Positions 27,274-57,526 of a stretch of 62,078 bases of DNA are shown piece after piece. Position 1 is the first letter of the stretch; each line of letters opens with the position of its first letter. Below the pieces are notes generated by a model that ran no database searches, was not told the DNA's origin, and worked only from the letters and a program-made list of their open reading frames with translations. Origin of the DNA: Pseudomonas sp. GM78. Lineage in GTDB: Bacteria; Pseudomonadota; Gammaproteobacteria; Pseudomonadales; Pseudomonadaceae. The stretch spans positions 1-62,078 of the forward strand of contig NZ_AKJF01000058.1 in the NCBI RefSeq assembly GCF_000282475.1, read 5' to 3'. A program made the translations under genes and the position numbers.

Positions 27274-27292
27274 TCATCCTCCGCATGGACTA
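27274..27292 (-). promoter_or_regulatory. 19-bp cluster operator before the kshA-like gene
   Basis: On the transcribed strand it reads TAGTCCATGCGGAGGATGA, matching TAGTCYNNNNGGACGATGW at all but one defined position. It lies 70 nt upstream of the oxygenase start. It is one of eight such elements in the window. Confidence 0.65.
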
Positions 27293-27324
27293 GATGAGCC
27301 TTCCACCGCGACTTCTCCAGACTG

Positions 27325-28164
27325 TCAGCGCCAGTCCGCGACGATCCCATGCTCCAGGGCAAAGGGCTGAGCAGCAATCGTGCGCCGCTGAAAATCCACC
27401 GCCTGCCCGGCCGTCGCCAGCCACACCATGACCGCGGCCGGCACCTGGGGGGGAGCGGTGCCGATGCGCATGGCCAGCAAGCCGCTCTCACCAATCGTGG
27501 CCTTCAGTGCGTCGGTGGTGACCACCCCGGGATTGAGCGTGAAGGCGCGAATCCCCTGCTTGCCCAGCTCGGCGGCAAGCACCCCGGACACCCGGGAAAC
27601 CGCAGCCTTGCCTGCCCCATAGGCGTACCCCCAGCCGCCGTCGGCGGCGGCCACGGGCGGGTCGCCCTCGCCGGCCCCGGAGGTCACGTTGATCACCACC
27701 CCCGAACCCCGTTCGAGCATGGCCGCCAGCACCGTCTGGGTGAGCAGTAACGGCGCCAGTATGTAGCCCTTGAATACCCGTTCCATGGTCTGCGCCTGCA
27801 GTGTCATGAACGCCGCATTCAAATCGTTGCCCTGGTAAATGGCGTTATTGACCAGCACATCGATGCGCCCGAACGCTGCCAGCACGGCCTGCCCGGCCGC
27901 GACCACCGAGGCGCTGTCGAGCAGGTCCATGGGCACCACCAGCGCCTCGCGCCCCAACTCGCGGATGGCCGCCGCGGTGCTGTTGAGGCTGCCGGGCAAG
28001 GGCACGCCCTGGGCATCGCACAAGCGATGGCTGGCGTGCTCGCCCTCCTCCAATGTGCGGGCACTGATCGCCACATCAAATCCGGCCCGGGCAAAAGCCA
28101 ATGCCGTCTCCCGGCCGATACCGCGGCTGGCGCCGGTAATGAATGCCACCTTGGTCATGGTCAT
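27325..28164 (-). CDS. Short-chain dehydrogenase/reductase, unassigned
   Basis: This 279-residue SDR has an N-terminal cofactor motif TGASRGIG (residues 10-17), the NNA motif (VLVNNAIYQG) and the active-site YAYGAGK. The segment EHASHRLCDAQGVPLPGSL between the second strand and helix is an insert of about 15 residues rare in classical SDRs. It follows the 3-alpha-HSD-like gene by 17 nt, so both are probably transcribed from the operator at 29006. A hydroxysteroid or hydroxyacyl substrate is plausible from context only. Confidence 0.82.
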   Translation of the reverse strand: MTMTKVAFITGASRGIGRETALAFARAGFDVAISARTLEEGEHASHRLCDAQGVPLPGSLNSTAAAIRELGREALVVPMDLLDSASVVAAGQAVLAAFGRIDVLVNNAIYQGNDLNAAFMTLQAQTMERVFKGYILAPLLLTQTVLAAMLERGSGVVINVTSGAGEGDPPVAAADGGWGYAYGAGKAAVSRVSGVLAAELGKQGIRAFTLNPGVVTTDALKATIGESGLLAMRIGTAPPQVPAAVMVWLATAGQAVDFQRRTIAAQPFALEHGIVADWR

Positions 28165-28181
28165 GCTCTCTGTGGCAAGGG

Positions 28182-28946
28182 TCAGAAACTGGCCGGGCGG
28201 ACCATGGCATCCATACCGCCATCGACAAAGATCACGCTGCCGTGGACAAAGCTGGCCTGTGCGGACTGCAGGAACGCCACCACTTGAGCGATTTCCTCGG
28301 GGTGACCGGAGCGCCCCAGCGGTGCGACGAACTCACGTACGGCCTTGGCAAAACGCGGGTCGTTCAGCGACGCCTGGTGCAACGGCGTCTCGACCGCTCC
28401 CGGCGCCACCACATTCAGGCGAATGCCCTGTTTGGCCCAGGCCACCGCCTTGCTGCGGGCATTGCGGGTCACCGCGTACTTGGAGCTGGCATAGGCGACG
28501 TGGGACAGCCCCAGGGCATTGGCATGTTCCAGCGCCAGGGTTTCGTTGCCGGCGAGCATGGCCGCGACCATCGGCTGCTGATCGGGCTTGGCGTGGGTGG
28601 CGGCAATCGAGCCGATCACCACGGCGGCCGGCTTGTCGCCCTTGGCCAGGGCATCGGCCAGACCGTCGAGCAGCTCACTGACGCCGAAGTAATTGACCGC
28701 GATAATGATATCGGACGTCGCGCTGGAACCTACCCCGGCGCAGCAGACCAGGCCGTCGAGCACGCCTGCGCTTTGCTCAAGCACCGCACTGATGGCTGCC
28801 TGGCGTCCGGCCGGGCTGGACAGGTCGGCGATGACCTCGGCGTTTGCCCGATCGATACCGATGATACGGTGCCCTGCCGCGCGTAGCGCCTGGCAGACTG
28901 CCGCGCCAATACCGGATGCAGAACCGCTGACCGCTGTAACTGGCAT
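28182..28946 (-). CDS. hsdA: 3-alpha-hydroxysteroid dehydrogenase-like SDR (HsdA type)
   Basis: This 254-residue SDR has SGSASGIGAAVCQ for NAD binding, IIGIDRANAEVIADLSSPAG, VNYFGVSELLDGL, active-site YASSKYA, and a C-terminus GGMDAMVRPASF. These correspond segment by segment, from memory, to the 3-alpha-hydroxysteroid dehydrogenase/carbonyl reductase of Comamonas testosteroni (IADLS, VNYFGATEL, and a similar end). It would oxidise the 3-hydroxyl of steroids to the ketone. ATG at 28946 follows AGGAAG by 6 nt. It is preceded by the operator at 29006 and the luxR terminator. Confidence 0.8.
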   Translation of the reverse strand: MPVTAVSGSASGIGAAVCQALRAAGHRIIGIDRANAEVIADLSSPAGRQAAISAVLEQSAGVLDGLVCCAGVGSSATSDIIIAVNYFGVSELLDGLADALAKGDKPAAVVIGSIAATHAKPDQQPMVAAMLAGNETLALEHANALGLSHVAYASSKYAVTRNARSKAVAWAKQGIRLNVVAPGAVETPLHQASLNDPRFAKAVREFVAPLGRSGHPEEIAQVVAFLQSAQASFVHGSVIFVDGGMDAMVRPASF

Positions 28947-29005
28947 AACGTTCTTCCTCATTAAATAACGGTGTCGGCTAGTATTGGGGCCGCACAAAGC
29001 CGCCA

Positions 29006-29024
29006 ACATCGTCCGCACGGACTA
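29006..29024 (-). promoter_or_regulatory. 19-bp cluster operator before hsdA-like gene
   Basis: It reads TAGTCCGTGCGGACGATGT on the transcribed strand, a perfect match to the consensus, with GTCC-N4-GGAC symmetry. It is 59 nt upstream of the start. A CAATAC hexamer 24 nt after GGAC could be the -10 box. Confidence 0.72.
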
Positions 29025-29025
29025 A

Positions 29026-29059
29026 AACGCCCCGATCTTGCGAGCAAGAACGGGGCGTT
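29026..29059 (-). terminator. Rho-independent terminator of the LuxR-type regulator gene
   Basis: AACGCCCCG (29026-29034) pairs with CGGGGCGTT (29051-29059). An inner stem TCTTGC/GCAAGA extends the hairpin. On the minus strand the stem is followed by TTTTAG. The T-run merges directly into the operator of the next gene. Confidence 0.72.
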
Positions 29060-29078
29060 CGGTTGACAAGGACCATGT

Positions 29079-30329
29079 TCAGGCGCGGTTGCGTACCGGC
29101 TGAGCCAGCTTCAACGCCGGCGTTTGCGGCTTATCGCTTGCCAGCATCGCCAACTTGGGCTTTCCCAGGGCAACCACACTGTTGAGGATGATGCGCACCA
29201 ACTCCGTTTGGCGGCGGACCCCGGTCTTCGAGAAAATCGAGCGCAAGTGCGCCCGGGCAGTGTTACGACGCACATTCAGCACTTCGGCGGCTTCTTCGAG
29301 GGACAGGCCGTTGGCCAACTCCATGGCCAATGCGGTTTCGGCCCGCGTCAGGTTGAACAGTTGCTTGGTCACCGTTTCACTGGCCATGGAACGGCCGACG
29401 GCGTCGCGGATGTACACCACCACCACAGGTTTGCTCTTGCCTTCGGCCCAGTCCTGGGTCGGAATCGCCTCGACGACGACGCCCAGGTTGATCTGTCCCG
29501 ATGGCCTGGACACCGCCATCGCTTCAGCCGCCGTGCTGACCTGCTCACTGCTCGCTTCGCGCGCGAAGGCATTACGCACCAGGCGCTGCAGTTCGCGATT
29601 ATCGGTGGGGTAAGTGGCCTCAAGACGACCGCCGACCAGCTTGAGTCCATCAGCCTGCTTGAGCAATTCGCTGGCCACGGGGTTCAGGCGCAGCACGCTG
29701 CCGTTCTGGTCAAGGACGATGGTGGCCACTGACAAGCGGCTGATGGCCTGGGAGTACAACTCACCGATCGATTCGCTGCGATCGAGCAGATTGTGCACAT
29801 GCATCGCACGGCGCAAGTGCGGCAGGAGCATTTCGCACAAGGTGCGTTCGGAGGCGGTGAATTTCGGCGCGGCTTTCGGCCGGGTGATGCGAAAGCGCAG
29901 CTTGCCGCCATCGGGTGTGGAAACATCGGCACCCATGATGTGGAAGGTGTCGTGGAGGGTGCCATAGGTCTTGTAGTAAACCGAACTGGTCCACTGCGCC
30001 TCGGTCATCAAGTCGTCGACCGTGAACACCTGGTCGATCGGCGGGTTGCTGAAGGGCGTGACCGATTGTTGATAAGGCCAGTAACTCACCTCTCCATCAC
30101 CTTCGATGTCGCCGACGACAATCATCAGGCCCAGGTCCGGCTGCTCAGGCACTCGCAGGATCAAGGTGACATAGTTGGCCTGGAACAAGCTGCGGACATG
30201 GCGCAGGGTCTTGGCCATCAACTTGTGATCCAGCGAGCCGTCGTAGAACTCGCCGATGAGCCTGTCATATTCAGCCAGCTCCACGCCCATTTCTGCCAGG
30301 GCCTGAACACTCAAACTGGAATTTTCCAT
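29079..30329 (-). CDS. LuxR-type transcriptional regulator, TeiR/TesR-like
   Basis: This is a 416-residue regulator. The N-terminal half (1-200) resembles a GAF/PAS-like sensor, a PAS segment lies near 205-300 (ATIVLDQNGSVLRLNPVASELL), and a LuxR HTH is at about 330-390 (LTRAETALAMELANGLSLEE, then RRNTARAHLRSIFSKTGV). The protein lacks an N-terminal receiver domain. This layout, in a steroid-type cluster, is that of the TeiR/TesR activator of Comamonas testosteroni. It is the only regulator seen in the catabolic region and so the best candidate for the 19-bp operators. The gene follows MMPL by 48 nt. Confidence 0.8.
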   Translation of the reverse strand: MENSSLSVQALAEMGVELAEYDRLIGEFYDGSLDHKLMAKTLRHVRSLFQANYVTLILRVPEQPDLGLMIVVGDIEGDGEVSYWPYQQSVTPFSNPPIDQVFTVDDLMTEAQWTSSVYYKTYGTLHDTFHIMGADVSTPDGGKLRFRITRPKAAPKFTASERTLCEMLLPHLRRAMHVHNLLDRSESIGELYSQAISRLSVATIVLDQNGSVLRLNPVASELLKQADGLKLVGGRLEATYPTDNRELQRLVRNAFAREASSEQVSTAAEAMAVSRPSGQINLGVVVEAIPTQDWAEGKSKPVVVVYIRDAVGRSMASETVTKQLFNLTRAETALAMELANGLSLEEAAEVLNVRRNTARAHLRSIFSKTGVRRQTELVRIILNSVVALGKPKLAMLASDKPQTPALKLAQPVRNRA

Positions 30330-30377
30330 CGCTCGTTTCCTCGCGGGACACAGCTCAGGCCATGCCCGTTTTTATTG

Positions 30378-32768
30378 TTATGATTCGAACGCTTGCGCAT
30401 TCGGCGCGCGGCCTGTTCTGGCCGCCACCAATGGCTTGCCCTGATTGAACCAGGCGGCCAGCGCCGGTAGCAGGAAAATCGCCCCAAGCACATTGACCAG
30501 AAACATGAACGATAGCAATACCCCCATGTCGGCCTGAAACTTCAGCGGCGCAAAGGCCCAGGTGCAGACCCCGATCGACATGGTCAGGGCGGTGAAAACC
30601 GCCGCCGTTCCGCGCTGGCACATGGCCCGGTAGAACGCATTACGCAGGTCGGCGCCGTCGGCCATTTCATGCTGGATCCGTTCATAGAGGTAAATCCCGT
30701 AGTCCACCCCTACTCCGACCCCGAGCGCCATCACCGGCAGTGTCGCCACCTTCAGGCCGATGCCGAGCATGGCCATCAGCGCGTTGCACAGCACCGCAAC
30801 AATGGCCAGCGGAACCAGGATGCACAGCACCGCGCGCAATGAGCTAAACGTCAGCCAGCAAAACAGCAGCACCGAGCCGAACAACGCCACCAGCATCAGC
30901 ACCTCGGCGCGCTTGACCGCGTCATTGGACGCCGCCATCACCCCCACGTTGCCACCGCCCAGGAGGAACTTGATTTCCGGGACCTGGACCTGGTCGATGA
31001 TCCGCTTGGCCTCCTTGACCACATGGGACACCGTCGCGCCATCGTGATCGGAGAGGAACACCAGGATCTGCATCTGCTGGCAGCCATCGGTCACCAGGCC
31101 GTCATCGGGCATATAGGCCCGGGCACCCTGGCTCAGTCCCCGGGACGAGCCCGGAATGGCCGCCCAGCGAGGGTTGCCTTCGTTGTTGCCAGCAATCACC
31201 GTCTTGCCAAAACCGGCCACACTCTGCACCGACTGCACCCCCGTGACGCTGCGCATCTTGAAGTCGAAGGCCTCGACGGCACGCATCACCGTCGGCGACA
31301 GACAGGCCTCTTCCAGGCCCTGGGCCTCGACGAACACCGCCAGCACATCGAGGCCGATGGAATAGCTGCCGACAATCTTCGCGTTGTCCTGGTTGTAACG
31401 CGACTCGGCGCGCAACTCCGGCGCACCGGCACCGATGTCACCGACTTCCAGCTGCCGCGCCTTGAGCACCGCGACGCCGAGCAACATCAGGCTGAGCACC
31501 AGCACCGCCAGCGCCGGACGCGGCTCGGCCAGTGCCGACAGCCGCCACCACAGCGGGTGCCTGCCCTGCTGCTGGACGCGCCCCTTGGCCAGCACGCTAC
31601 GCTCGAGGCGCAAATGGGAAATGATGATCGGCAACATCATCTTGTTGGTGATGATCATCAGCATCACACCGATGCAGGCGGTCACGCCCAGTTCATGCAC
31701 GATCGGGATGTCGATCAGCATGATCACGGCAAAACCCAGGGCATTCATCAGCAGCGCCAGGGAACCGGGAATGAAGATGTTGCAGAAAGCCAGGCGCGCC
31801 GCCTGCACCGAGTCCTTTCCGGCCAGGACTTCCTGCTTCCAGGCATTGGTCATCTGCACGGCGTGCGAGACGCCGATGGAGAAGATCAGGAACGGCACCA
31901 GAATCGACATCGGGTCGATGCCCAGGCCCATCAGCGGCAGCAGTCCCAGGAGCCAGACCACCGGTAGCAAGGCCACCAGCAAGGCCACCACGGTCAGGCG
32001 CAGCGACCGCGAGTAGATCCACAGCAGCAGGCCGGTGATCAGGAAGGCGACGACAAAAAAACCGATCACTGTCATCAGGCCTTCGACCACATCGCCCACC
32101 AGCTTGGCGAAGCCGACGATGTTGATTTCCACCTGGTCGCTGGCGTATTTGGCGCGGATGTCTTCCAGGCTCCGGGACACGTCCACATAACTGACCGCCT
32201 TGCCGGTCTGCGGGTCGACGTCCTGCAGGTCGGCACGCACCATGGCCGACTTCAGGTCGTTAGCCACCAGCCGTCCGACCTGCCCGGAGCGGGCGGCGTT
32301 GCTGCGCACCTGGGCCAGGTCCTCGGCAGTTCCGGTAAAGCGTGGCGGCACGACTACATCGCCGAAAAAGCCTTCTTCGGTGATTTCGATGTAGCGCACA
32401 TTGGCGGTAAACAACGAGGTGACGCTGGCGCGGCTGACCCCGTTGATGAAGAACACATCGTCAGTGACCTTACGCAGCGTGTCGAGGAACTGCGGGTTAT
32501 AGATATCCCCTTCGCCTTTCCATTTCACACTGACCAGAAAACGGTTGGCCCCGGTGAAATACTGACTGAAACCGAGGAAGTTGAGCATGTACTCATGCCT
32601 TACCGGGATCTGCTTGTTGAAGCCAGGATCGAGCTGGGTGTGCGTGGCGCTGTACCCCAGGCCCAGGGTCAGCAGCACAAACACCGACAGCAGCAGTTTG
32701 CGTTGCCCAAGCAACAGGTCGGCACAGCGCTCGACCATGCGGTCGACCCAGGATTTACCGTGTTTCAT
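30378..32768 (-). CDS. MMPL/RND-family lipid transporter
   Basis: This 796-residue protein has two repeats of one TM plus a large periplasmic domain plus five TMs (about twelve TMs in all). It has a sterol-sensing/MMPL core with LVPFLIFSIGVSHAVQM and GVGVGVDYGIYLYERI. Such proteins move lipids and hydrophobic molecules across the inner membrane. ATG at 32768 overlaps the YCF48 gene stop by 14 nt; a longer frame to 32867 is rejected. RND, YCF48-type and DUF1302 genes recur together beside lipid and steroid catabolic genes of gammaproteobacteria. Confidence 0.85.
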   Translation of the reverse strand: MKHGKSWVDRMVERCADLLLGQRKLLLSVFVLLTLGLGYSATHTQLDPGFNKQIPVRHEYMLNFLGFSQYFTGANRFLVSVKWKGEGDIYNPQFLDTLRKVTDDVFFINGVSRASVTSLFTANVRYIEITEEGFFGDVVVPPRFTGTAEDLAQVRSNAARSGQVGRLVANDLKSAMVRADLQDVDPQTGKAVSYVDVSRSLEDIRAKYASDQVEINIVGFAKLVGDVVEGLMTVIGFFVVAFLITGLLLWIYSRSLRLTVVALLVALLPVVWLLGLLPLMGLGIDPMSILVPFLIFSIGVSHAVQMTNAWKQEVLAGKDSVQAARLAFCNIFIPGSLALLMNALGFAVIMLIDIPIVHELGVTACIGVMLMIITNKMMLPIIISHLRLERSVLAKGRVQQQGRHPLWWRLSALAEPRPALAVLVLSLMLLGVAVLKARQLEVGDIGAGAPELRAESRYNQDNAKIVGSYSIGLDVLAVFVEAQGLEEACLSPTVMRAVEAFDFKMRSVTGVQSVQSVAGFGKTVIAGNNEGNPRWAAIPGSSRGLSQGARAYMPDDGLVTDGCQQMQILVFLSDHDGATVSHVVKEAKRIIDQVQVPEIKFLLGGGNVGVMAASNDAVKRAEVLMLVALFGSVLLFCWLTFSSLRAVLCILVPLAIVAVLCNALMAMLGIGLKVATLPVMALGVGVGVDYGIYLYERIQHEMADGADLRNAFYRAMCQRGTAAVFTALTMSIGVCTWAFAPLKFQADMGVLLSFMFLVNVLGAIFLLPALAAWFNQGKPLVAARTGRAPNAQAFES

Positions 32769-33753
32769 GACGCTGCTCCCCTTTGCCCAGCACGGCAACG
32801 CTGTTGCCGCTGCCCTGATACACACCACGTTCACCGGCCACCAGCACCTGGTCGCCCTCCACCACAACAGCTGAGGTCAAGGTCCCAAGCCCGGGTTGCC
32901 GGCTGGTGCCGAGCAGGTGGCCCTGGCCATCGAGGCGCACCATCGAACTGCCCGCGCCGACAATCAGTACCCCGCCGTTGTCCGGTAGCAGCACATGACC
33001 ATAGAGCGGTTGCGTGTTGCCGACCTTGATGGCCTGCCATTGCTCGCCGAAGTCATCGGTGACGAAGACATGACCGCGCATACCGTAGGTCACCCAACGC
33101 TGGGAACTCAGGCGGACCACGCCAAACAGCGAGCCGTTGTAGAACGTCGGCAACTGTTGCCAGTGCTGGCCGTTATCGGCACTGCGCAGGACCAGGCCCT
33201 GCTCGCCGACCAGCATGCGACGGCCATCACTGCCGCCATCCATGGCATTGAGGTGAGAGCGATCGACTTCCAGCGCCAGCACTTGCCAGCTCTGCCCGGC
33301 ATCGTCGGACTGGTAGAACTTGCCGTAGCTGCCGAACACAAAGACCTGGTCACCGCCAGCCGCCCAAACGCCCAGCAATGGCTCACCGGCTTCGGGCTCG
33401 TAGCGAACCTCATGCCAGCTGCTGCCCTCGTCGGAGGAACGCAGGATCAAGCCATCCTGGCCAACGGCAATCAGTTGCCCGGCGCTCAATGCGGTAATGG
33501 CGGTGAGGGAAATCTGCCGGCGCGGCTCGACACTGGCCTGCCGCCAGGCATGGCCGCGGTCATCGCTGATCAAAATGGTGCCGCGTTCGCCCACCGCCAC
33601 CTGGCGCTTGCCCAGGTTGAGCAGGCCATTGATTTGCATGCGGTCGGTGTTCAGCGCCGTTTCGCCGACGCTCGCGCCCTCACGCGGGGTAAACGCCAGC
33701 GTGACGATTGCGGCAACCGCAATGCACACCAGGTAAGCGATCAACTGGCGCAT
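32755..33753 (-). CDS. YCF48/BNR beta-propeller envelope protein
   Basis: This 332-residue protein has an N-terminal membrane anchor (MRQLIAYLVCIAVAAIVTLAF) and Asp-box repeats with the patterns SDDRGHAWRQ, SSDEGSSWHE, SDDAGQSWQV, SADNGQHWQQ and TDDFGEQWQA. It fits the YCF48 propeller family that accompanies MMPL transporters. It is translated together with the MMPL gene. Its operator at 33909 is 155 nt upstream, farther than for other operons, so the true start could be earlier or the leader longer. Confidence 0.84.
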   Translation of the reverse strand: MRQLIAYLVCIAVAAIVTLAFTPREGASVGETALNTDRMQINGLLNLGKRQVAVGERGTILISDDRGHAWRQASVEPRRQISLTAITALSAGQLIAVGQDGLILRSSDEGSSWHEVRYEPEAGEPLLGVWAAGGDQVFVFGSYGKFYQSDDAGQSWQVLALEVDRSHLNAMDGGSDGRRMLVGEQGLVLRSADNGQHWQQLPTFYNGSLFGVVRLSSQRWVTYGMRGHVFVTDDFGEQWQAIKVGNTQPLYGHVLLPDNGGVLIVGAGSSMVRLDGQGHLLGTSRQPGLGTLTSAVVVEGDQVLVAGERGVYQGSGNSVAVLGKGEQRHETR

Positions 33754-33908
33754 GGGCGACTCCTTGCAGCAACATCCAGGCGCTCGACAATAGACATACA
33801 GCCCACCCTCTTATTCTTGTAGAAGTGAATCACCGCACCCACGAGGTGCGGCGCTTGCAACCGCTCTTGACTGAGGTGTGTAGATAGTCGTCCTGCCCGG
33901 CTCCCGGG

Positions 33909-33927
33909 GCATCGTCCAAATGGCCTA
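33909..33927 (-). promoter_or_regulatory. 19-bp cluster operator before YCF48-MMPL-luxR operon
   Basis: It reads TAGGCCATTTGGACGATGC on the transcribed strand, two mismatches from consensus. TATCTA or GACTAT about 24-27 nt after GGAC is a possible -10 box. It lies in the 202-nt gap after the thiolase gene. Confidence 0.6.
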
Positions 33928-33955
33928 CCCCGGTGCCGAACGACCCAATCCGTGA

Positions 33956-35643: not shown

Positions 35644-35653
35644 GGGGATGTCC

Positions 35654-36439: not shown

Positions 36440-36499
36440 GATCTATACCTCTGACAGAAAACACGATGTCGACAGGTATAAAGGCCGCCGGGAGCGGGC

Positions 36500-36518
36500 A
36501 CATCGTCAAAACGGACGG
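36500..36518 (-). promoter_or_regulatory. 19-bp cluster operator before ipdF
   Basis: It reads CCGTCCGTTTTGACGATGT on the transcribed strand; the right half GACGATGT is intact and the left half GTCC is preserved. TATACC follows at the expected -10 distance. Confidence 0.6.
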
Positions 36519-36674: not shown

Positions 36675-36685
36675 GGAGGACGGAC

Positions 36686-46404: not shown

Positions 46405-46466
46405 GCCCTGCTCCTCAATGACTGGACCTTTGTTGGTCTTCATTGTGCTGAGGGGGGGCAACTGCA

Positions 46467-46485
46467 TCATCGTCCGTTGAGACTA
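46467..46485 (-). promoter_or_regulatory. 19-bp cluster operator before hsaC-ipd operon
   Basis: It reads TAGTCTCAACGGACGATGA on the transcribed strand, a full match to the consensus. CACAAT starts 24 nt after GGAC as a possible -10 box. It lies 62 nt before the hsaC-like start. Confidence 0.72.
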
Positions 46486-46548
46486 AGCATCTGATCTGCT
46501 GGGGAAAGAAAAAGGTGGTGACCCCGACACCGGAATATCCAATTCCTC

Positions 46549-46661
46549 GTGGGAGCGGGCTTGCTCGCGATGAGCCCGAAGGTGCCGGGTTTATCCAGCC
46601 AGCAGTCGTTAACGTTCACGACCATCGTCGGAACGCCGCCCGGAGCCGGCTCGCCCCCACA
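46549..46661. repeat. Degenerate REPIN, GTGGGAG type
   Basis: GTGGGAGCGGGCTTGCTCGC (46549) is only partly mirrored by GGAGCCGGCTCGCCCCCACA (ending 46661). Both arms have changes and the loop is enlarged, so the element looks old. Confidence 0.65.
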
Positions 46662-46702
46662 GGAAATTGCAGCAGGTTCAGCGAATGTGCACGAACACAC
46701 TA

Positions 46703-46990
46703 GCGTAGCGCGCCGGCTTGATGCCATGGTCGGCCCAGAGGCCGCCACCGCGAGGCTTTTGATCGCAGACGCCCCGTTAACCACGCTGGCCGAACGCAGG
46801 CATTGCGCAGTGGGTAAACCGGCAGGACGCCGGTTTAGCCGCGCTGGGCCAGGGATGGCCCATCGCGGCGACCCACGGAGCAATGCCGGAGAGAGGGCAC
46901 ACCGAGCCTTAGCGAGGTGCCGAGTGGTGGGGCAAAGAGCGCTTGGTTACTTGGCGCTTTTCCAAGTAACCCGCCGTAAGGGCGGAACCT
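46703..46990. repeat. Dispersed intergenic repeat of Pseudomonas
   Basis: This block of about 290 nt contains GGTAAACCGGCAGGACGCCG, then GCCGCGCTGGGCCAGGGATG, GGAGCAATGCCGGAGAGAGG, AGCGAGGTGCCGAGTGGTGG and TTACTTGGCGCTTTTCCAAG. I recognise it as a sequence present in several copies in fluorescent pseudomonads, often misannotated as small ORFs. The exact ends are uncertain. Its role is unknown. Confidence 0.55.
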
Positions 46991-47084
46991 ATTGAAGCCA
47001 TTACCGCAGAAACGGATATGTACACGAGACAAGGTCAAAAGATCGCTGCCTCGTTCCACGAGACAGCTCCTACAGGTTGGGTGG

Positions 47085-48041
47085 TCACATGTACAGAATC
47101 ACCAGGTCGTTGATCACCGAAGGGCGATCACTGCCAACCACATGAGTGTTCACTTCCAGCGTGAGCTGGGTCCCGCGCTTGACCCGCGCCACCTGCTTGA
47201 CCCTGGCCCGCGCATGTATCCGCGCACCGGCTGGCACCGGTGCCGGGAAGCGCAGGCGGTCCGAGCCGTAGTTGACCATGGTGCCAAAGCCGGTGATCTC
47301 ATAGCCCAGTTGCAGTTTGAGCCGCGATTGCAGCACCTGCACCAGCGCACCGTGGGCGATGGTGCCGCCAAACGGGCTGTCCTTGCGCGCACGCTCAGGA
47401 TCGGTATGAATCCAGTAGTCATCACCCGACAACAACGCGAAGGCATCGATCAAGGCCTGGTCGACAACAATTTCGTTGCTCCAGTCGCTGAAGGTTTCAC
47501 TGACCAGGCTCTGCAGTGCCACCTCATCGTCCATGGCAATCAGGCGCGCAGGTGCAACCTCAAGTTGTTCCACAGGTTGCGTTTGCGGCGCCCCGGCCCA
47601 GTGCTGCAGCGCGGCGCTGTCCTGCTCCATGCCGGTAAAGCGCAGTAACCGCGTGCCCTTTGCATCGACCTCGGCAAACACCGGTTTCAAACGCATGCCG
47701 ATGCGAATCTGGTCCTCTTCAAGCCCCACCAGCGTGGTATTGATCCGCACGCCTTCATCCAGCTCGATGACCGCCAGTTTCTGCGGCATTTCATCGGCGA
47801 AGTCCGGCAACGTGGGGATGCGCGCCACGGTAAAGCTGTACAGGCTGGCGCCACCGCTCACGTCACGCCAGGTCAGGTCGTGGGCCAGGCAACGCGGGCA
47901 GTGCCGACGCGGGTAAAACACCCAGTGTTCGCAGGCGTTGCACTGCTGGATCAACAGCCGTTGCGCTTTCAGGCCTTCCCAGTACGGTGCAGAAATATCG
48001 GTCGGTACCGGCATTGGTTTATTGTTCGACATGCTGGTCAT
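47085..48041 (-). CDS. DUF35 (zinc ribbon/OB-fold)-MaoC fusion, partner of the Ltp2-like aldolase
   Basis: This 318-residue protein has an N-terminal DUF35 domain with zinc-ribbon CNACEHWVFYPRRHCPRC (near 35-52) and the OB-fold segment WRDVSGGASLYSFTVARIP. The C-terminal MaoC-like half (from about 155) has FALLSGDDYWIHTDPERA and GGTIAHGALVQVLQSRL. In known retro-aldolases a DUF35 domain sits after the MaoC-like part (ChsH2 with Ltp2); here the order is reversed. The start at 48041 overlaps the aldolase stop (ATGA); ATG at 48032 is an alternative. Expected substrate: a hydroxyacyl-CoA of the side chain. Confidence 0.82.
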   Translation of the reverse strand: MTSMSNNKPMPVPTDISAPYWEGLKAQRLLIQQCNACEHWVFYPRRHCPRCLAHDLTWRDVSGGASLYSFTVARIPTLPDFADEMPQKLAVIELDEGVRINTTLVGLEEDQIRIGMRLKPVFAEVDAKGTRLLRFTGMEQDSAALQHWAGAPQTQPVEQLEVAPARLIAMDDEVALQSLVSETFSDWSNEIVVDQALIDAFALLSGDDYWIHTDPERARKDSPFGGTIAHGALVQVLQSRLKLQLGYEITGFGTMVNYGSDRLRFPAPVPAGARIHARARVKQVARVKRGTQLTLEVNTHVVGSDRPSVINDLVILYM

Positions 48042-49249: not shown

Positions 49250-49318
49250 GTATCCTCCGCTCGAAGGCTGTGCACTTGTGTTTTTGTCTTGCGACCATGC
49301 CACAACGCGTGCGGCAAG

Positions 49319-49337
49319 TGATCGTCCATTTGGACCA
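49319..49337 (-). promoter_or_regulatory. 19-bp cluster operator before ltp2-like gene
   Basis: It reads TGGTCCAAATGGACGATCA on the transcribed strand: a perfect GTCC-N4-GGAC inverted repeat with one mismatch in the GATG tail. It is 69 nt upstream of the start. Confidence 0.65.
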
Positions 49338-49387
49338 GAACACCGCCCAGCGCCAGGATCTTCCCGGCGTGGGCGCCTGCACGGTGA

Positions 49388-51064: not shown

Positions 51065-51133
51065 ACTGCCTCTCCCGATTAACGACCTGATGGCCGCGCA
51101 AAGTGCAAGAACACCACTATTTCCCATGCCCGC

Positions 51134-52222
51134 TCAGAGCTGCCCTAGCACAGACTGAGCGGTGACACCTTCTGGCGTGCGTCCGTAACGGAACACGCCG
51201 GCTGTTTCTTCACGTACCAAGTGCCCTTGGGCGATGAGGTAATTGACATGGGCCAGGGTTTCGCCGATGGCCATCAATTCATCGAAGCGCCCCTTGACCG
51301 TCGGAAACAGCACCGCCATCAGTTGCACGGCACTGCGCGGCGCCGTGCAGGCATCCAGCAGGCGCTGCAAATGCTCCTGGTGATGGTCACGCAGTTGGTC
51401 AAGGCGCTGATGCAGGTTGAAAAACGGACGCTCATGCGCCGGCAGCACCAGCACGCTATCGGGCACGCTGCGCAGGCATTCGACCGAGTCCAGCCAGTCC
51501 CGCAACGGATCGGCATCGGGTTCGGTCACCTGGACGCAGACACTGGAAGTGATGCGCGGCAGCACTTGATCGCCCGAGATCAGCAGGCCGTCCTCGGCGC
51601 AGTACAGGCAGGCATGTTCCGGCGAATGGCCGCGGCCAATCCGCACCTGCCAGCGACGTCCGCCGATGGTCAGCTGACTGCCTTCGCTCAAACGCCTGAA
51701 GCTGGTTGGCACCTGCGGGCGAAAGTGCGCCGAACCGAGCAGCGGAAACAACGCCTCGGTCTGCTCGGTACTGAAACCGGCGCGCTGGTAATGCTCGCGA
51801 AAGGCCCAACTGCTGCTGACATCGCTCTGCGTGCCCAACTGATGCATGGCCTGGTATTCACTGGCGCTCATGAACACCGGGCAGCGGAAGCGATCGCTCA
51901 ACCAGCCGAGCACACCGACATGATCGGAGTGAAAGTGGGTGCAAATCACCGCGACCAGGGGCAAACCACCCAACGCCGTGTCGAACAGCCCTTCCCAGAC
52001 TTCGCGGGTCTGCGCATTGTTGAGCCCGGTATCGACCGCCACCCAGCCCTGGCCATGACGCAGCAGGTACAGATTGATATGGTCGAGCCCGAACGGCAGC
52101 GGCATGCGCAGCCACAGCAGCCCCTCGGCGACCTGCTGCACCGCGCCATTGGCGGGCGGCTGCGGCCAGGGAAAGCGCAGGCCCGAGCGCCACTCATGCC
52201 CTTGGGCATCAAGGTTACTCAT
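51134..52222 (-). CDS. Metallo-beta-lactamase-fold hydrolase
   Basis: This 362-residue protein has the metal-binding THFHSDHVG (near residue 99), GRGHSPEHACLYC, SGDQVLPR, and late VLPAHERPF. It overlaps the stop of the CoA ligase gene by 8 nt, which suggests translational coupling. A thioesterase or lactonase role in the steroid pathway is possible but not shown. The frame to 52342 is not used because the N-terminal extension has no family features. There is no signal peptide, so it is cytoplasmic. Confidence 0.8.
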   Translation of the reverse strand: MSNLDAQGHEWRSGLRFPWPQPPANGAVQQVAEGLLWLRMPLPFGLDHINLYLLRHGQGWVAVDTGLNNAQTREVWEGLFDTALGGLPLVAVICTHFHSDHVGVLGWLSDRFRCPVFMSASEYQAMHQLGTQSDVSSSWAFREHYQRAGFSTEQTEALFPLLGSAHFRPQVPTSFRRLSEGSQLTIGGRRWQVRIGRGHSPEHACLYCAEDGLLISGDQVLPRITSSVCVQVTEPDADPLRDWLDSVECLRSVPDSVLVLPAHERPFFNLHQRLDQLRDHHQEHLQRLLDACTAPRSAVQLMAVLFPTVKGRFDELMAIGETLAHVNYLIAQGHLVREETAGVFRYGRTPEGVTAQSVLGQL

Positions 52223-54077
52223 GGCTGTCACCCGCAAAGGCGGCCAAGCCAACCCGCTCAAGCGCCTGCGTGCTGTACGGCACATAGCTGCCGCAGCTTT
52301 CGTCGCGAATGAACAGTGGGTCGCTGAATGCCGTCGGTGCATAGCCCTGGCGCTGCAGGTCCACCTTGCGCAACTTGAAGGTGCTGGTCAGATCGGCAGC
52401 CGCTAAAACGCGCACGAACACCGGCGCGGCATAGCGCGGCAAACGCGCCTGCGTCAGCGTATAGAACGCTTCGGGATCGAAGGTTTGCCCTGGCTGCATC
52501 AAGACCGCCGCCATACCGGCCCGCCCCTCTTGCCCTGGCACCTGCACACCATAGATATTGATCAGTTCAAGCCCGGCAAAGTCCCCCAGCGCAGCCGCCA
52601 CCTCCAGGGTGGAGACGTTCTCGCTCTTCCAGCGGAAGGTGTCGCCGATGCGGTCGATAAAGTAGAGGTAGCCGTCCTCATCAAAACGCAACAGGTCACC
52701 CGAGCTCCAGTAGGCGTCCCCTTGGCTGAACACATTGCGGCGAATCTTGCTGTCGGTGGCCTCGGCCGAGGTGTAGCCCTCGAAGCGCCCGCCGCCGATT
52801 TCCGGATGGCTGATGATCAAGCCCAGGGCTTCGCCCACCTCACCCTCTTCGCACAGCTGGTAAAAGCCGTGTTCGTCCCGTGGATAGCTGTCGGTTTCAA
52901 CGTCATAGCGCACCAGGCGCAGGTTGCTCTTGTCCCAGAACGGCACACGACCGCAGGCGCCCAGGTAATTGTCGACGTTGACCACGTTGGTGTTGGATTC
53001 GGTGGAGCCCCACCCCTCGAACACCTGGATCGCGCCGAAGCGCTGTACCCAGTTCTGCCAGGTCTCTCGGGATAACCCGGCGCCGAGCATGCAGCGCAGC
53101 CCGTGCTCACGCTCGCCGGCGACCGCGGGTTGGTTGAGCAGGTAGCGACAGATTTCACCTATGTACTGGAACACGCTGATGTGGTGCTTGCGTACGTCGC
53201 TCCAAAACTCCCGGACACTGAATTTGCGCCGCACCACAATCGCCGCGCCGGTTTTCAGCGCGGTAGAGGTCACCGACGTGGCGGCCGCACCGTGGTACAG
53301 CGGCAGGCAGCAATAGAACACGTCCTGGGGCGTGGTCTGCAGGGTGACTTCCATGATGTCGCCCGTCGACATCCAGCGCATGTGGCTGTAACGCGCAGCT
53401 TTGGGCAGGCCCGTCGTGCCCGAGGTAAAAATCAACAAGCTTGGGGTCTCGGCGCTGAGGTCGGCGCGCAGGTCCCGTGGGAATGGCGTGTCCGGTGCCT
53501 TGGCCAGCGCTTCACCCAGGCGGGTATCGACGTGCGCGGGCATGGCGCCCGTCCATGGCTGCTCGGCATCCTCCACCAGCCACAAGGGCAACGGCGGCAA
53601 GCCTTCGGTCGCGAGGAAATTGCCCAGCACCTCTTCGCCGACGATCACCGCCTTGGCGGCAATGGCCTCCAGGGCATGCACCAGTGGCCGCCCGCTAACC
53701 TGGGTGTTGACGAAACCCACCACCACACCCAGTTTGACCAGGCCGAACCAGCTGCAGAAAAATTCCGGGCGGTTCTCCATGGCCAGCGCGCAGACATCCC
53801 CGGGGCGCAGGCCGCGGGCATGAAAGACGTGGGCCAGGCGGTCAGCCTCGGCATTGATCCTGGCAAAACTCAGGCGCTGCTCGCCATAGATGATGAAGGG
53901 CCGCTCGCCATGGCGCCGGGCTTGCTCCTCGAGGCGATCGGCCAGGGTATAGCGATCCGCCGGTTTGATGCGCGCGCTGGCTTCGGCCCGGCGATCGAGG
54001 ATGGCCTGGGTCTGCTCGCGCGGCACCACGCCGCGGTCGGCACTGGACAGCAGGCTTGCGTTGTTGAAATTGTTCAT
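52215..54077 (-). CDS. FATP/very-long-chain-type acyl-CoA synthetase
   Basis: This 620-residue AMP-forming ligase has a P-loop-like LLIFTSGTTGLPKAARYSHM (near 208-228), GWGSTESN (A5), and YWSSGDLLRFDEDGYLYFIDRIGDTFRWKSENVST, the signature of fatty-acid transport/very-long-chain ligases that include bile acid and sterol acid CoA ligases. ATG at 54077 has GGAGGT before it. It would activate the side-chain or ring-derived carboxylic acid. It is coupled to the metallohydrolase gene. Confidence 0.84.
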   Translation of the reverse strand: MNNFNNASLLSSADRGVVPREQTQAILDRRAEASARIKPADRYTLADRLEEQARRHGERPFIIYGEQRLSFARINAEADRLAHVFHARGLRPGDVCALAMENRPEFFCSWFGLVKLGVVVGFVNTQVSGRPLVHALEAIAAKAVIVGEEVLGNFLATEGLPPLPLWLVEDAEQPWTGAMPAHVDTRLGEALAKAPDTPFPRDLRADLSAETPSLLIFTSGTTGLPKAARYSHMRWMSTGDIMEVTLQTTPQDVFYCCLPLYHGAAATSVTSTALKTGAAIVVRRKFSVREFWSDVRKHHISVFQYIGEICRYLLNQPAVAGEREHGLRCMLGAGLSRETWQNWVQRFGAIQVFEGWGSTESNTNVVNVDNYLGACGRVPFWDKSNLRLVRYDVETDSYPRDEHGFYQLCEEGEVGEALGLIISHPEIGGGRFEGYTSAEATDSKIRRNVFSQGDAYWSSGDLLRFDEDGYLYFIDRIGDTFRWKSENVSTLEVAAALGDFAGLELINIYGVQVPGQEGRAGMAAVLMQPGQTFDPEAFYTLTQARLPRYAAPVFVRVLAAADLTSTFKLRKVDLQRQGYAPTAFSDPLFIRDESCGSYVPYSTQALERVGLAAFAGDSHE

Positions 54078-54115
54078 CCCTACCTCCGATAAATCCTGTT
54101 GTTCAAGCACTCGCC

Positions 54116-55192
54116 TCAGGCTCGACCCGGATAGTCCGAATAGCCTTGCGCGCCTTGGGTATAAAGGGTCTTGCGGTCGAAACCGGCCAGTGGCAGACCG
54201 GCGCGCAGGCGCTCGACCAGGTCCGGGTTGCCGATAAAATGCCGGGCGAACGACACGGCGGAGCCCTGCCCGCCTTCAAGTGCCGCAGTGGCTGAAGGCC
54301 CGTCGAATCCGTCGTTGAGAATCAGCGCGCTGGTGCTATGCCGACGGGCCAGGTCAAAGGCATCCAGCTGCGCCAGCGGCGAACGCATGATGTGCAGGTA
54401 GGCCAGGCCAAGCGGTTCGATCTGGCGGCACAGGGCTTGCGCGGTGCCGGCCGGGTCAGCGTCGCTGATGTCGTTGTACGGGTTGCCCGGGCACATCCGC
54501 AGTCCCACGCGTCCAGGTCCGATGGCGCTGGCCATGGCTGCCAGTACCTCGGCCGCAAAGCGCACACGGTTCTCGACCGTGCCGCCATAACCATCGCTGC
54601 GCCGGTTGCTGCTCGACGCCATGAATTGCATGGGCAGGTAGCCGCTGGTGCAATGCAGCTCGACCCCCTCGAAGCCCGCTTCGCGGGCATTCAGGGCGGC
54701 GCGTCGGTATTGCTCGATCACCTCGGCGATCGCTTCCAGGCTCAGCGCCTCGGGCTCATCGGTATCGACCAGACCGGCGCCGTCACTGAACACCCCGTCA
54801 CTGAATAGTTGCGTGCGCGCGCGGATGGCCGAAGGCGCGACGGTGCGCGCCCCGATCGGTTTGTTTTGCCAGCAGGCGACACGGCCCACATGCATCAACT
54901 GCAACACCATCCGCCCACCGGCGTCGTTCACCGCGCGGGTCACCTGGCGCCATCCCTCGATCTGCGCACTGTCATAGATGGCCGGCGTGCGGCAATACCC
55001 CAGACCATCGGCTGACGGTGCCGTGCCTTCGGCAATGATCAACCCGGCACTGGCGCGCTGGCGGTAGTAATCGACCATTTCTGCCGTCGGCACCGCGTGC
55101 ACGCTGGCGCGGCTGCGGGTCATTGGCGCCATGACGATACGGTTGCTCAGCTCCAGCTCGCCCAGGCGCAGGGGTTCAAACAAAATGCTCAT
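54116..55192 (-). CDS. Old yellow enzyme family flavin reductase with altered active site
   Basis: This 358-residue FMN-dependent TIM barrel has RIVMAPMTRSRA, the substrate-pocket motif ELHCTSGYLPMQF and SSNRRSDGYGGTVENRVRF. In classical family members the pocket reads HxxN or HxxH; here the second residue is Ser (HCTS). It is likely to reduce an activated C=C of a steroid enone or enoyl derivative. It is encoded 9 nt downstream of the BaiE-like dehydratase. Confidence 0.83.
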   Translation of the reverse strand: MSILFEPLRLGELELSNRIVMAPMTRSRASVHAVPTAEMVDYYRQRASAGLIIAEGTAPSADGLGYCRTPAIYDSAQIEGWRQVTRAVNDAGGRMVLQLMHVGRVACWQNKPIGARTVAPSAIRARTQLFSDGVFSDGAGLVDTDEPEALSLEAIAEVIEQYRRAALNAREAGFEGVELHCTSGYLPMQFMASSSNRRSDGYGGTVENRVRFAAEVLAAMASAIGPGRVGLRMCPGNPYNDISDADPAGTAQALCRQIEPLGLAYLHIMRSPLAQLDAFDLARRHSTSALILNDGFDGPSATAALEGGQGSAVSFARHFIGNPDLVERLRAGLPLAGFDRKTLYTQGAQGYSDYPGRA

Positions 55193-55201
55193 CGCAAATC
55201 C

Positions 55202-55837
55202 TCAGCGCACACGAATCTTCGGTGCCGCAGCACCGCGTCGCAGGGTGGCTAGAAAGTGTTCCAGGGGCGCAGCCGGAGCGACGTCTGGCAGTTGGTCCTT
55301 GTCCGGGCGCCTGGCCCAGAACTCGACCCAGGACGGGAACAGGTCATGGAAGGTGCCGGCATAGGGTTCACGACCCGGCCAGCGCATTTTTCGCTCACCG
55401 ATGGGCGGCTTGTTGAGGTCGCTGGCGTACCAGTAGCACGGTAGTCGGCGGCGGAAATACCAACGGCCATCGATGCGCTGGTAGTCATCCCAATAGAGCA
55501 TTTGCATGGTGACCCACTCAGGGCCCGTCTCATGCTCGTTCTTGGAATACACCACGCCCACGGCGTTATCGGCATCGAGCAGTTCGATGATGTGCTGGCC
55601 CAGGTGATGGGACGTGCCGCTGAACTGATCGCGCAACGTGGCATCGACCCACGCCTTGAGGTGCGCACGGCCGGTCTTTTCGCGCCCCACGCGAATGTCT
55701 TCGGCAAACAGGTTGACGTGGGCATCGAGGTCGCGCATGTCCAGTGACAGCGAGTACTTGGCCGCCAGTTGACGGATTTCTTCAATCGACTCAAGCCGAT
55801 CGATACGGGCCAGCAAAGTGTTGGGCTCCATGCTCAT
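55202..55837 (-). CDS. SnoaL/NTF2-fold dehydratase-like protein (BaiE/Hsh2 type)
   Basis: This 211-residue protein has an alpha+beta-barrel SnoaL core. Tyr28 and Asp33 (AKYSLSLDM) and a His in SHHLGQH (77-82) match in spacing the Tyr30, Asp35 and His83 catalytic residues that I recall for BaiE, the bile acid 7-alpha-dehydratase. Such an enzyme would eliminate a ring hydroxyl. A C-terminal extension of about 60 residues is absent from BaiE. The start at 55837 (MSMEPNT) abuts the SDR stop. Ketosteroid-isomerase-like chemistry is the alternative. Confidence 0.72.
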   Translation of the reverse strand: MSMEPNTLLARIDRLESIEEIRQLAAKYSLSLDMRDLDAHVNLFAEDIRVGREKTGRAHLKAWVDATLRDQFSGTSHHLGQHIIELLDADNAVGVVYSKNEHETGPEWVTMQMLYWDDYQRIDGRWYFRRRLPCYWYASDLNKPPIGERKMRWPGREPYAGTFHDLFPSWVEFWARRPDKDQLPDVAPAAPLEHFLATLRRGAAAPKIRVR

Positions 55838-56610
55838 CACTCCAGCACCGTGTAGAGTTCCGAGCTGCGCCCGCCATCCACCGGCACACATGCACCGGTG
55901 ATGTAGGACGCCTCGTCACTGGCCAGGAACAAAATCGCGTTGGCCACTTCCTGCGGCTGGCCGATGCGCCGCAGCGGAATCAACTTCTCGGTGTTGCCAC
56001 GTGCCTTTTCGTCGGACAGCATGCCGGCCGTTGCCGGGGTTTCGACGACGCCGGGAATCACCACATTGCAGCGGATCTTGTTGGCGGCCCCTTCACTGGC
56101 GGCCGCGCGGCTGAAGTTGATCACCGCCGCCTTGGCCGCCGAATAGCCGGCCATCCAGGGCGTACCGAACAGTCCGCAGATGGAGGCGATGTTGACGATG
56201 GCACCGCCGCCCTGGGCTTTCATCAGCGCCATGGCCGTGCGCGTGCCCCAGAAGGTGCCGTCCACGGTGGTGCTGAAGTTGGCGTGCCAATCGGCGGTTG
56301 TGGTGCTGTCGATGGCGCCCCAGGTGTAGGCCATGGCGTTGTTGACGAGGATATCCAGGCGCCCGTGAAGGCGCGCCGCCGCTTCGATCGCGCCGACGAA
56401 AGCACATTCGTCGCTGACATCGGCGACACTCCAGTGCGCTTGGCCCCCCGCGTCGCGAATAGCACTCGCCACCGCTTGCAATGGCGCCTGATTACGCCCG
56501 CAGAGCACCACGGTGGCGCCCTCTTCGGCAAAGCGCCGAGCGGTGGCCGCACCGATGCCGGAACCGGCACCGGTAATAAAAGCGATCTTGCCTTGCAGTC
56601 GTCTGCTCAT
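55837..56610 (-). CDS. Short-chain dehydrogenase/reductase (hydroxysteroid-type context)
   Basis: This 257-residue SDR has TGAGSGIGAATARRFAEEGA, NNAMAYTWGAID, active-site GYSAAKAAVINFSRAAASEG, and C-terminal EASYITGACVPVDGG. NNAM replaces NNAG. ATG at 56610 is preferred; 18 nt upstream there is only a TTG. It lies between the other SDR and the dehydratase gene, so a ring-hydroxyl dehydrogenase role (7- or 12-position) is inferred from context only. Confidence 0.82.
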   Translation of the reverse strand: MSRRLQGKIAFITGAGSGIGAATARRFAEEGATVVLCGRNQAPLQAVASAIRDAGGQAHWSVADVSDECAFVGAIEAAARLHGRLDILVNNAMAYTWGAIDSTTTADWHANFSTTVDGTFWGTRTAMALMKAQGGGAIVNIASICGLFGTPWMAGYSAAKAAVINFSRAAASEGAANKIRCNVVIPGVVETPATAGMLSDEKARGNTEKLIPLRRIGQPQEVANAILFLASDEASYITGACVPVDGGRSSELYTVLE

Positions 56611-56624
56611 TCCCTGCTCCCGGT

Positions 56625-57359
56625 TCAAATGAAGGCCATGCCGCCGTTGACGGCGAGGTTCTGACCGGTGATGAAGCTGGCGTCTTCGCTGGCCAGAAAC
56701 ACCGCGACACGGGCAATCTCATCGGTTTCGCCCATACGCCCCAGGGGGATGGCCTTGAGCATGCTCTGCATCCAGTCATCGGGGATGCCAGCCATCATCG
56801 GTGTGTTGGTCGGGCCGGGTACCAGGGTGTTGACGCGGATACCGCTGGCCGCCAACTCCCGTGCCATGCTGCGGGTCAGGCCCATTACCCCGGCCTTGGC
56901 TGCGCAGTAATGGCTTGGGCCTTCACCGGTCATCGCCGCCGTGCTGGAAATATTGATGACGGCGCCGCGGCTGCCGTGCTTTTGCATCAGGCGCACACCT
57001 TCACGGCTGCACAGGAAAGTGCCCGTGAGATTGACGCCAATGACCCGCTGCCAATGTTCGTCAGGGGTGTCGACAAAGCTGTCGACCGAGCCGACGCCGG
57101 CGTTATTGACCAGGATGTCGAGACCGCCAAAACGGCCCTCGATGACTTCCATGGCCGCTGCCACCGAGGCACTGTCGGCGACGTTGCAAGCCAGGGCCAG
57201 CGCCTGTTCGCCGAGGCCTTCGATGGTCTGCCGGGCTGCCTGCAGGTTGATGTCGGCCGCCACCACCCGAGCGCCGGCCTGGGCAAAGCACTGGGCAATC
57301 GCCCGGCCCATACCTTGGCCGGCACCCGTGATCAGGGCCACTTTGTTCGCTAGCTTCAT
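56625..57359 (-). CDS. Short-chain dehydrogenase/reductase heading the dehydratase operon
   Basis: This 244-residue SDR has TGAGQGMGRAIAQCFAQAGA, VNNAGVGSVDSF, active-site HYCAAKAGVMG, and C-terminal DASFITGQNLAVNGGMAFI. It is the first gene of a run of seven (two SDRs, dehydratase, flavin reductase, CoA ligase, metallohydrolase, DUF1302). The operator at 57455 lies 95 nt upstream and faces it. Confidence 0.83.
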   Translation of the reverse strand: MKLANKVALITGAGQGMGRAIAQCFAQAGARVVAADINLQAARQTIEGLGEQALALACNVADSASVAAAMEVIEGRFGGLDILVNNAGVGSVDSFVDTPDEHWQRVIGVNLTGTFLCSREGVRLMQKHGSRGAVINISSTAAMTGEGPSHYCAAKAGVMGLTRSMARELAASGIRVNTLVPGPTNTPMMAGIPDDWMQSMLKAIPLGRMGETDEIARVAVFLASEDASFITGQNLAVNGGMAFI

Positions 57360-57454
57360 CGTTGTTCTCCCGCGCCTTGGCTACCCCGATCACCGGCACT
57401 GCCTGGCCTGATGATCGAGCACGGGATGAATCATTAACCCTGTTCAAAACCGCA

Positions 57455-57473
57455 ACATCGTCCGATAAGACTA
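57455..57473 (-). promoter_or_regulatory. 19-bp cluster operator, minus-strand copy of the divergent pair
   Basis: It reads TAGTCTTATCGGACGATGT on the transcribed strand, a full match to the consensus, before the minus-strand SDR operon. A second copy faces the opposite way 34 nt to the right. Confidence 0.72.
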
Positions 57474-57507
57474 CGCCGCGGCGGTTGCTCGACGGCCCGC
57501 ATGCGAG

Positions 57508-57526
57508 TGGTCTGAATGGACGATGT
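57508..57526 (+). promoter_or_regulatory. 19-bp cluster operator, plus-strand copy of the divergent pair
   Basis: It reads TGGTCTGAATGGACGATGT on the plus strand and faces the MFS gene, whose start is 59 nt away. GACACT begins 24 nt after GGAC. Confidence 0.7.

Follow-up and report, generated by a model that had tools for sequence, protein, structure and literature searches.

An operator with a -10 element at fixed spacing in steroid catabolic clusters of Pseudomonas sp. GM78 and other proteobacteria, very probably read by a TesR/TeiR-type LuxR-family activator

TeiR/TesR of Comamonas testosteroni has been described as a positive regulator of the LuxR type that steroid genes need for their induction (PMC6678751, PMC6895838, PMC8700777; papers given by PMC number are drawn on in excerpt throughout), a description that goes back to 2004 according to the references in these papers. 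Two TeiR-like genes have already been noted in Pseudomonas stutzeri Chol1, and deletion of a TeiR-like gene delayed cholate degradation in this strain, an unpublished result quoted in PMC8399759. Among the best-ranked open-access literature matches, which do not take in the original TeiR paper, none appeared to describe an operator or a promoter layout for TesR/TeiR. Here, we analyzed a 62,078-nucleotide stretch of DNA from Pseudomonas sp. GM78 (contig NZ_AKJF01000058.1, positions 1 to 62,078 of the forward strand), called the window below, in which a sequence-only reading had pointed out eight copies of a 19-bp site in front of the operons of a catabolic cluster. These sites are very probably operators of a TesR/TeiR-type LuxR-family activator, with the protein encoded at 29079-30329 as the most likely candidate, and the preferred reading joins each site to a -10 element at fixed spacing, the two being halves of a single promoter unit. 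The regulator is of a known kind; its operator and promoter unit are new. The finding stands and is stronger than first stated, and the fixed -10 element and a second cluster elsewhere in the genome are additions to the sequence-only reading.

Two further systems invite comparison. The KstR/KstR2 regulons of actinobacteria likewise place several steroid operons under one regulator and one operator but are governed by TetR-type repressors, an unrelated protein family with the opposite logic (PMC4810484, PMC8399759). EdcR of Caenibius tardaugens provides a published operator in proteobacterial steroid degradation; in contrast to the sites described here, it is the palindrome TnnCnnTACnAnTnGTAnnGnnA, bound by a repressor of estrogen genes and overlapping the -10 element (PMC8700777).

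All eight 19-bp sites were recovered by pattern matching across the window, and sites, spacing and orientation were computed directly. Seven lie on the minus strand: 27274-27292 before kshA-like and MFS genes (70 nt to the start), 29006-29024 before HsdA-like SDR genes (59 nt), 33909-33927 before the YCF48-MMPL-luxR operon which contains the regulator gene (155 nt), 36500-36518 before ipdF-like SDR, MaoC and thiolase genes (60 nt), 46467-46485 before hsaC/tesB-like, ipdA, ipdB and further C/D-ring genes (62 or 65 nt), 49319-49337 before ltp2-like and ChsH2/MaoC genes (69 nt), and 57455-57473 before an SDR-SDR-BaiE/SteC-like-OYE-CoA ligase-MBL-DUF1302 operon (95 nt). The eighth, 57508-57526 on the plus strand, is divergent from 57455 and precedes an MFS-hsaD-like operon (59 nt). 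Distances were re-measured from the operator end to the start supported by a ribosome binding site, chosen among the listed frames, and agreed with those reported before (59-95 nt, 155 nt for YCF48), as did the orientation of all sites towards the downstream gene. The printed consensus TAGTCYNNNNGGACGATGW fared less well: the gap-free common sequence is real, but the consensus is too strict, being exact at 29006, 46467 and 57455 only, with one mismatch at 27274 and 57508, two at 33909 and 49319, and three at 36500. T[A/c/g]GTCY-N4-[G/t/a]GACGATG[A/T] is a better fit. With up to three mismatches allowed, TAGTCYNNNNGGACGATGW matched the window 10 times against 2.09 expected matches, and none of 100 shuffles reached 10.

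The sites follow the gene arrangement closely. They divide a 29-gene co-directional steroid/bile-acid catabolic block (24963-57359, minus strand) into seven transcription units. Among the seven gaps longer than 25 nt in this block, each of the six exceeding 48 nt holds one site while the 48-nt gap holds none; one further site heads the block, and the divergent unit of MFS transporter and HsaD-like hydrolase (57586-59768, plus strand, from the gene listing) has its own. The claim of a site before every operon therefore holds for the block as listed and for the divergent unit.

We scored the window with a matrix built from 33 sites of other lineages, namely two Pseudomonas with 41-42%-identical regulators, Vibrio alfacsensis, Caballeronia and three Burkholderiaceae-like genomes (a family so called from a TctC expansion). 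The eight sites were the exact top eight, with scores of 31.1 (57455), 30.7 (46467), 24.2 (29006), 21.7 (57508), 19.1 (33909), 18.3 (49319), 17.5 (27274) and, weakest, 15.4 (36500), followed by 7.6 bits for the next match; the training sites had themselves been picked with a window-derived matrix, and seven further matches of at least 19.5 (L113, L115, L119, L120, L232) were omitted from training. In 40 Markov-made windows, the mean maximum under this held-out matrix was 9.3 and the highest score 20.7, a value exceeded by four of the eight sites. After addition of the -10 columns described below, the largest shuffled maximum was 16.0, with seven of the eight sites higher and 36500 (15.2) below. 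Two extra three-mismatch matches to the printed consensus, at 13563 and 51219, were set aside as chance: 51219 is the match scoring 7.6 and 13563 falls outside the held-out top 12.

Aligning 60 promoter groups on the operator revealed that conservation returns at positions 39-44 (xA[t/a]AAT), with little else conserved downstream. This -10-like hexamer and the operator are separated by a constant 19 bp. In a stricter set of 55 promoter groups, the mean match to TATAAT was 3.25 of 6 at position 39 compared with 0.8-2.1 at the other offsets tested (22-65), and A40 and T44 were both present in 39 of the 55 groups and in one of 22 control sites (Fisher 6e-8). Controls were loci judged to be off-cluster or from regulator-negative genomes, set aside by place and not by their -10 letters; the positives include one likely chance site (L102), and L038 belongs to the 60-group set and not to the 55-group set. 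In the window, A40 is present at all eight sites and A40 together with T44 at six. The minus-strand hexamers are GAAGAT (27249-27254, site 27274, starting at operator position 39 as in all cases), CAATAC (28981-28986, site 29006, with AATACT one base further on), GACTAT (33884-33889, site 33909), TATACC (36475-36480, site 36500), CACAAT (46442-46447, site 46467), CATGGT (49294-49299, site 49319) and AATGAT (57430-57435, site 57455), while GACACT (57546-57551, site 57508) lies on the plus strand.

A -10 element at positions 39-44 places the putative transcript start near position 51 and consequently the centre of the dyad (8.5) near -42.5. Class II activator-dependent sigma-70 promoters carry their operator centred near -41.5 to -42.5, and in class II activation of the LuxR/FixJ type the lux box is centred near -42.5. 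The promoter groups aligned on the operator showed no good -35 hexamer at the right spacing from the -10: the -35 position coincides with the right end of the operator, and the match to TTGACA at 17-bp spacing was 2.55 of 6, owed to the operator's own ATG. An operator near -42.5 at fixed distance from a weak -10, with a weak or missing -35, is class II activator geometry, as judged with a start predicted from the -10. The operator itself, T.GTCY-N4-RGAC.A, is unlike the lux box in sequence and is shorter.

The same geometry bears on two other explanations. The regulator could act as a repressor, with the dyad blocking RNA polymerase until a steroid releases it; the dyad does overlap the -35 position, and a LuxR-type repressor of a steroid gene has been reported in C. 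testosteroni (PMC6678751, PMC8700777). We regard this as very unlikely, since a good -35 is lacking, the spacing to the -10 is as rigid as for an activator, and TeiR/TesR is reported to be positive. A conserved upstream block at fixed distance from a -10-like block could also mark a promoter of an alternative, extracytoplasmic function (ECF)-type sigma factor with GGACGATG as its -35. ECF promoters space the two elements by approximately 16-18 bp, whereas GGAC (positions 11-14) and the -10 (39-44) are ca. 24 bp apart, which is too long. Further, GTCY-N4-RGAC makes the upstream block a dyad, the -10 is similar to the TATAAT of sigma-70, and presence of the motif tracks the LuxR gene, all of which makes an ECF promoter highly improbable.

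The proposed activator is a 416-residue protein encoded on the minus strand at 29079-30329, assigned to the TesR/TeiR type from Pfam, homology and gene order. PF00196 (GerE, a helix-turn-helix (HTH) domain) was matched at residues 327-380 with 24.2 bits against a cut-off of 23.5, and the gene lies among genes of the 9,10-seco steroid pathway. A LuxR-type C-terminal HTH and a place within the steroid cluster are shared with TesR/TeiR of C. testosteroni, and regulators of this type measure approximately 390-420 residues. Unlike tesR/teiR, the window gene sits behind YCF48-MMPL, which separates it from the preceding IpdF-MaoC-thiolase genes. No match in the PDB was obtained at E 0.01. The closest named relatives are found in Pseudomonas putida W15Oct28 (90% identity), P. 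arcuscaelestis (88%) and P. bubulae/parafragi (81%). PMC6895838 repeats the statement that tesR-like genes occur only in C. testosteroni, and our findings speak against such a confinement.

The recognition helix NTARAHLRSIFSKTGVRRQ is nearly invariant down to ca. 43% overall identity in an unweighted alignment of 56 regulators, in which column conservation reaches 0.96 at residues 361-380 compared with 0.40-0.74 in 20-residue blocks of residues 1-320. Among 18 further copies or distant matches, the search pattern caught a helix in 12 and none in six. Copies of 55-69% identity keep NTARAHLR[S/A]IFSKTGVRRQ, and those of 37-41% differ at a few places.

Motif and regulator co-occur across genomes. 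The regulator was matched at E <=1e-10 in 77 of 398 Pseudomonas genomes: GM78 itself, 68 strong matches (E <1e-60) and eight weak ones (best ca. 4e-21). Scanning with TRGTCYNNNNKGACGATGW at zero mismatches yielded at least two sites in 67 of the 68 strong-regulator genomes (403 sites in total) and in two of 74 genomes without a regulator match (20 sites in total), a co-occurrence with a Fisher value of 5e-37 when genomes are counted without kinship correction. The C/D-ring gene IpdA was present in 21 of 149 Pseudomonas genomes, presumably G000-G148; all 21 had a strong regulator match and, up to G148, no other genome did. In the Burkholderiaceae-like family, the regulator was matched at E 1e-40 in 13 of 399 genomes; G788-G795 were presumably among the 399 searched. 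The pattern TAGTCYNNNN[AGT]GACGATGW, chosen after seeing matches, occurred in all 13 (33 sites) and, counted by eye, in none of 27 genomes without a regulator match; with C allowed at position 11, three more sites appeared in three of these 27. A looser pattern, TNGTCYNNNNNGACGATGW, was dropped for its high background, with matches in 19 of the 27. That the motif tracks the regulator gene supports the earlier suggestion that the LuxR-type protein is its likely reader.

Another transcription factor of the clusters could still own the sites, with the LuxR gene merely a frequent neighbour. Because the LuxR gene served to select the genomes, co-occurrence extends to other conserved genes of the clusters, and binding of the regulator at the sites is a prediction. 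Three genomes of other families, however, keep IpdA with no regulator match at E 1e-25 and gave 0, 0 and 1 loose motif matches; no site was found in the stretches around IpdA in these genomes (best scores 1.0, 4.3 and 4.7), two of which include an HsaC homologue. Helix and operator also change very little, even where identity over the remainder of the regulator has fallen to ca. 43%. On the Vibrio plasmid described below, the annotation of the examined stretches (L117, L124) lists, besides the regulator and a toxin-antitoxin pair, one HTH protein near hsaA and PhnR. Taken together, ownership by another factor appears unlikely, and the LuxR-type protein remains the preferred reader.

Cross-lineage conservation was likewise computed directly. 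A first matrix found 62 sites scoring at least 19.5 in 23 loci, 12 of them in GM78 and 50 in 20 loci outside it. In 42 of these 50, a gene whose product is homologous to a window or second-cluster protein follows within 350 nt; three query proteins (MMPL, ChsH and the second CoA ligase) were out of frame in this test and thus unmatchable. Sites precede HsaC homologues in Pseudomonas of both regulator groups, Vibrio, Caballeronia and three Burkholderiaceae-like genomes, and HsaA homologues in Pseudomonas, Vibrio, Caballeronia and one Burkholderiaceae-like genome. Homologues of IpdF, KshA, KstD, HsaD, DUF1302 and DUF1329 are preceded by a site in one or more lineages, and HsaB-like genes (28-32% identity) only outside GM78. 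The hsaC site reads TAGTCTCAACGGACGATGA in GM78 and TAGTCTCAACGGACGATGT in several Burkholderiaceae-like genomes. The Vibrio alfacsensis plasmid NZ_CP140104.1 (L117, L124) carries a steroid-type cluster with a 52%-identical TesR-like regulator and four operators.

Gene order supports the assignment of the regulator. In three Burkholderiaceae-like genomes (G783, G906 and G1121), a 43-47%-identical regulator is the last gene of an HsaC-first run, HsaC-IpdA-IpdB-EchA20-IpdC-ECH-ACAD-ACAD-FadA6-SDR-...-IpdF-MaoC-thiolase-regulator, pieced together from two overlapping stretches each; in G906 and G1121, OYE, BaiE/SteC-like and SDR genes lie just upstream. A run that opens with HsaC/TesB and closes with the regulator recalls the published cluster reported to extend from tesB to tesR, going by the title of a 2004 report by Horinouchi. 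The runs also match the gene content given for the steA-tesR cluster of C. testosteroni TA441 (PMC13101464).

We then scanned the GM78 genome (7.29 Mb, 235 contigs). The 19-bp pattern alone gave four exact matches, three on the window contig and one on contig C133, and 12 matches with up to one mismatch (five on the window contig, four on C133 and three elsewhere). The operator plus -10 pattern without mismatches matched six times, three times each in the window and on C133, so that all perfect matches fall in the two steroid clusters and the motif is not equally common at unrelated genes. With up to one mismatch, 12 of 21 matches lay on these two contigs; with up to two, 210 matches compared with 75 for the reversed pattern, and those listed were mostly off both steroid contigs. 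Together with the gap pattern, these matches support the proposal that the sites define a regulon and that operon borders can be read from DNA. The three matches elsewhere at up to one mismatch (C59, C62 and C66) were rejected, having first-matrix scores of below 14, 16.4 and 17.2 compared with at least 22.2 for the window sites. They also fall in long open frames, a weak point as true sites also lie in long chance frames.

Contig C133 (45,166 bases; L041, L031, L032) carries four operators and, by the held-out matrix, two weaker divergent ones. Its Pfam content includes a flavin reductase, an HsaA-like acyl-CoA-dehydrogenase-fold protein, two KstD-like flavoproteins and an enoyl-CoA hydratase, besides several acyl-CoA dehydrogenases, a thiolase, CoA ligases and DUF1329. 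With pathway names read from Pfam matches, this content suggests a second cluster for steroid and side-chain catabolism, and the C133 operators are probably part of the same regulon as the window sites.

A number of observations weigh against the reading of the sites as operators of a TesR/TeiR-type activator. At up to two mismatches, the 19-bp pattern matched the genome 45 times compared with 61 times for a reversed control, so loose matching of this pattern alone carries no signal. This count is what would be expected if the sites arose by chance or from the composition of a GC-rich genome, yet the held-out ranking, the fixed -10, the conservation across genera and the co-occurrence with the regulator leave such an origin a negligible probability. 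Two of the eight window hexamers, at 28981 and 36475, lack T44. A site at C12:20246-20264 (L038:3247-3265) scores 25.8 on the first matrix and adjoins non-steroid genes; it lies near the start of a decarboxylase-like frame, as judged by eye, carries no -10 letters and is perhaps a chance match. Burkholderia arboris L119 and Cupriavidus L120 have one site each of at least 19.5, besides weaker candidates, though L120 contains steroid genes. No site of at least 19.5 was found in L121 (Sphingobium) or L226, and Sphingobium relatives with 32-35%-identical regulators showed no convincing set of sites. On the Sphingobium plasmid, which encodes a 35%-identical regulator, a weak site (18.2) at L121:14718-14736 lies ca. 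54 nt before KshA; nothing consistent accompanied it and it was not counted. In genome G225, the regulator (C21:98351-99466) is 37% identical and its helix is similar, but the genome has no operator match; another box or a different pathway may be the target of this regulator. The proposed link to TesR/TeiR draws on gene order and homology. Finally, TeiR has also been reported as a membrane protein acting via kinase activity, which is a different mechanism (PMC6678751).

Physical binding, activation over repression, the transcript starts and the inducer are what we infer from these patterns. In the mechanism we propose, each promoter unit would consist of an imperfect dyad, T[A]GTCY-N4-[G]GACGATG[W], followed by 19 bp and a weak -10. 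The regulator would sit as a dimer on the dyad (centre near -42.5), where it would stand in for the missing -35 contact and bring in RNA polymerase by class II activation, with a steroid or steroid catabolite as putative inducer. The eight window units and at least four units on C133 would be switched on together, and because YCF48-MMPL-luxR, among the eight, includes the regulator gene, the regulator would raise its own expression in a positive autoregulatory circuit.

With the operator plus -10 unit, regulon, operon borders and predicted start sites become readable in the bare DNA, and new steroid genes can be flagged in genomes that lack annotation; steroid biosensors could draw on the unit for ready-made parts. 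A wider proposal, which we consider equally capable of standing or falling, is that many sensors share one box: steroid-sensing LuxR-type activators, up to four copies per Pseudomonas genome and with identities down to ca. 40%, would retain an almost constant recognition helix and use the same operator plus -10 unit across Gamma- and Betaproteobacteria. If true, steroid, bile-acid and side-chain modules would be cross-wired through the common box, and any module gained by horizontal transfer together with the box would immediately be connected to the circuit.

Several further features were observed. One Pseudomonas genome (G204) has four TesR-like regulator matches, and the same operator is present on all three contigs that carry them (C6, C22 and C35). 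The Vibrio alfacsensis plasmid is 174 kb long, ca. 99 kb of which were examined, and also encodes PEP-CTERM/exosortase genes. In the window, a gap of ca. 600 bases (46486-47085) separates the hsaC operator from the ChsH2/MaoC gene and contains two small frames with no Pfam match. Downstream of hsaD, a plus-strand frame at 59693-61966 shows an FMN-oxidoreductase plus pyridine-nucleotide reductase architecture and possibly belongs to the MFS-hsaD unit.

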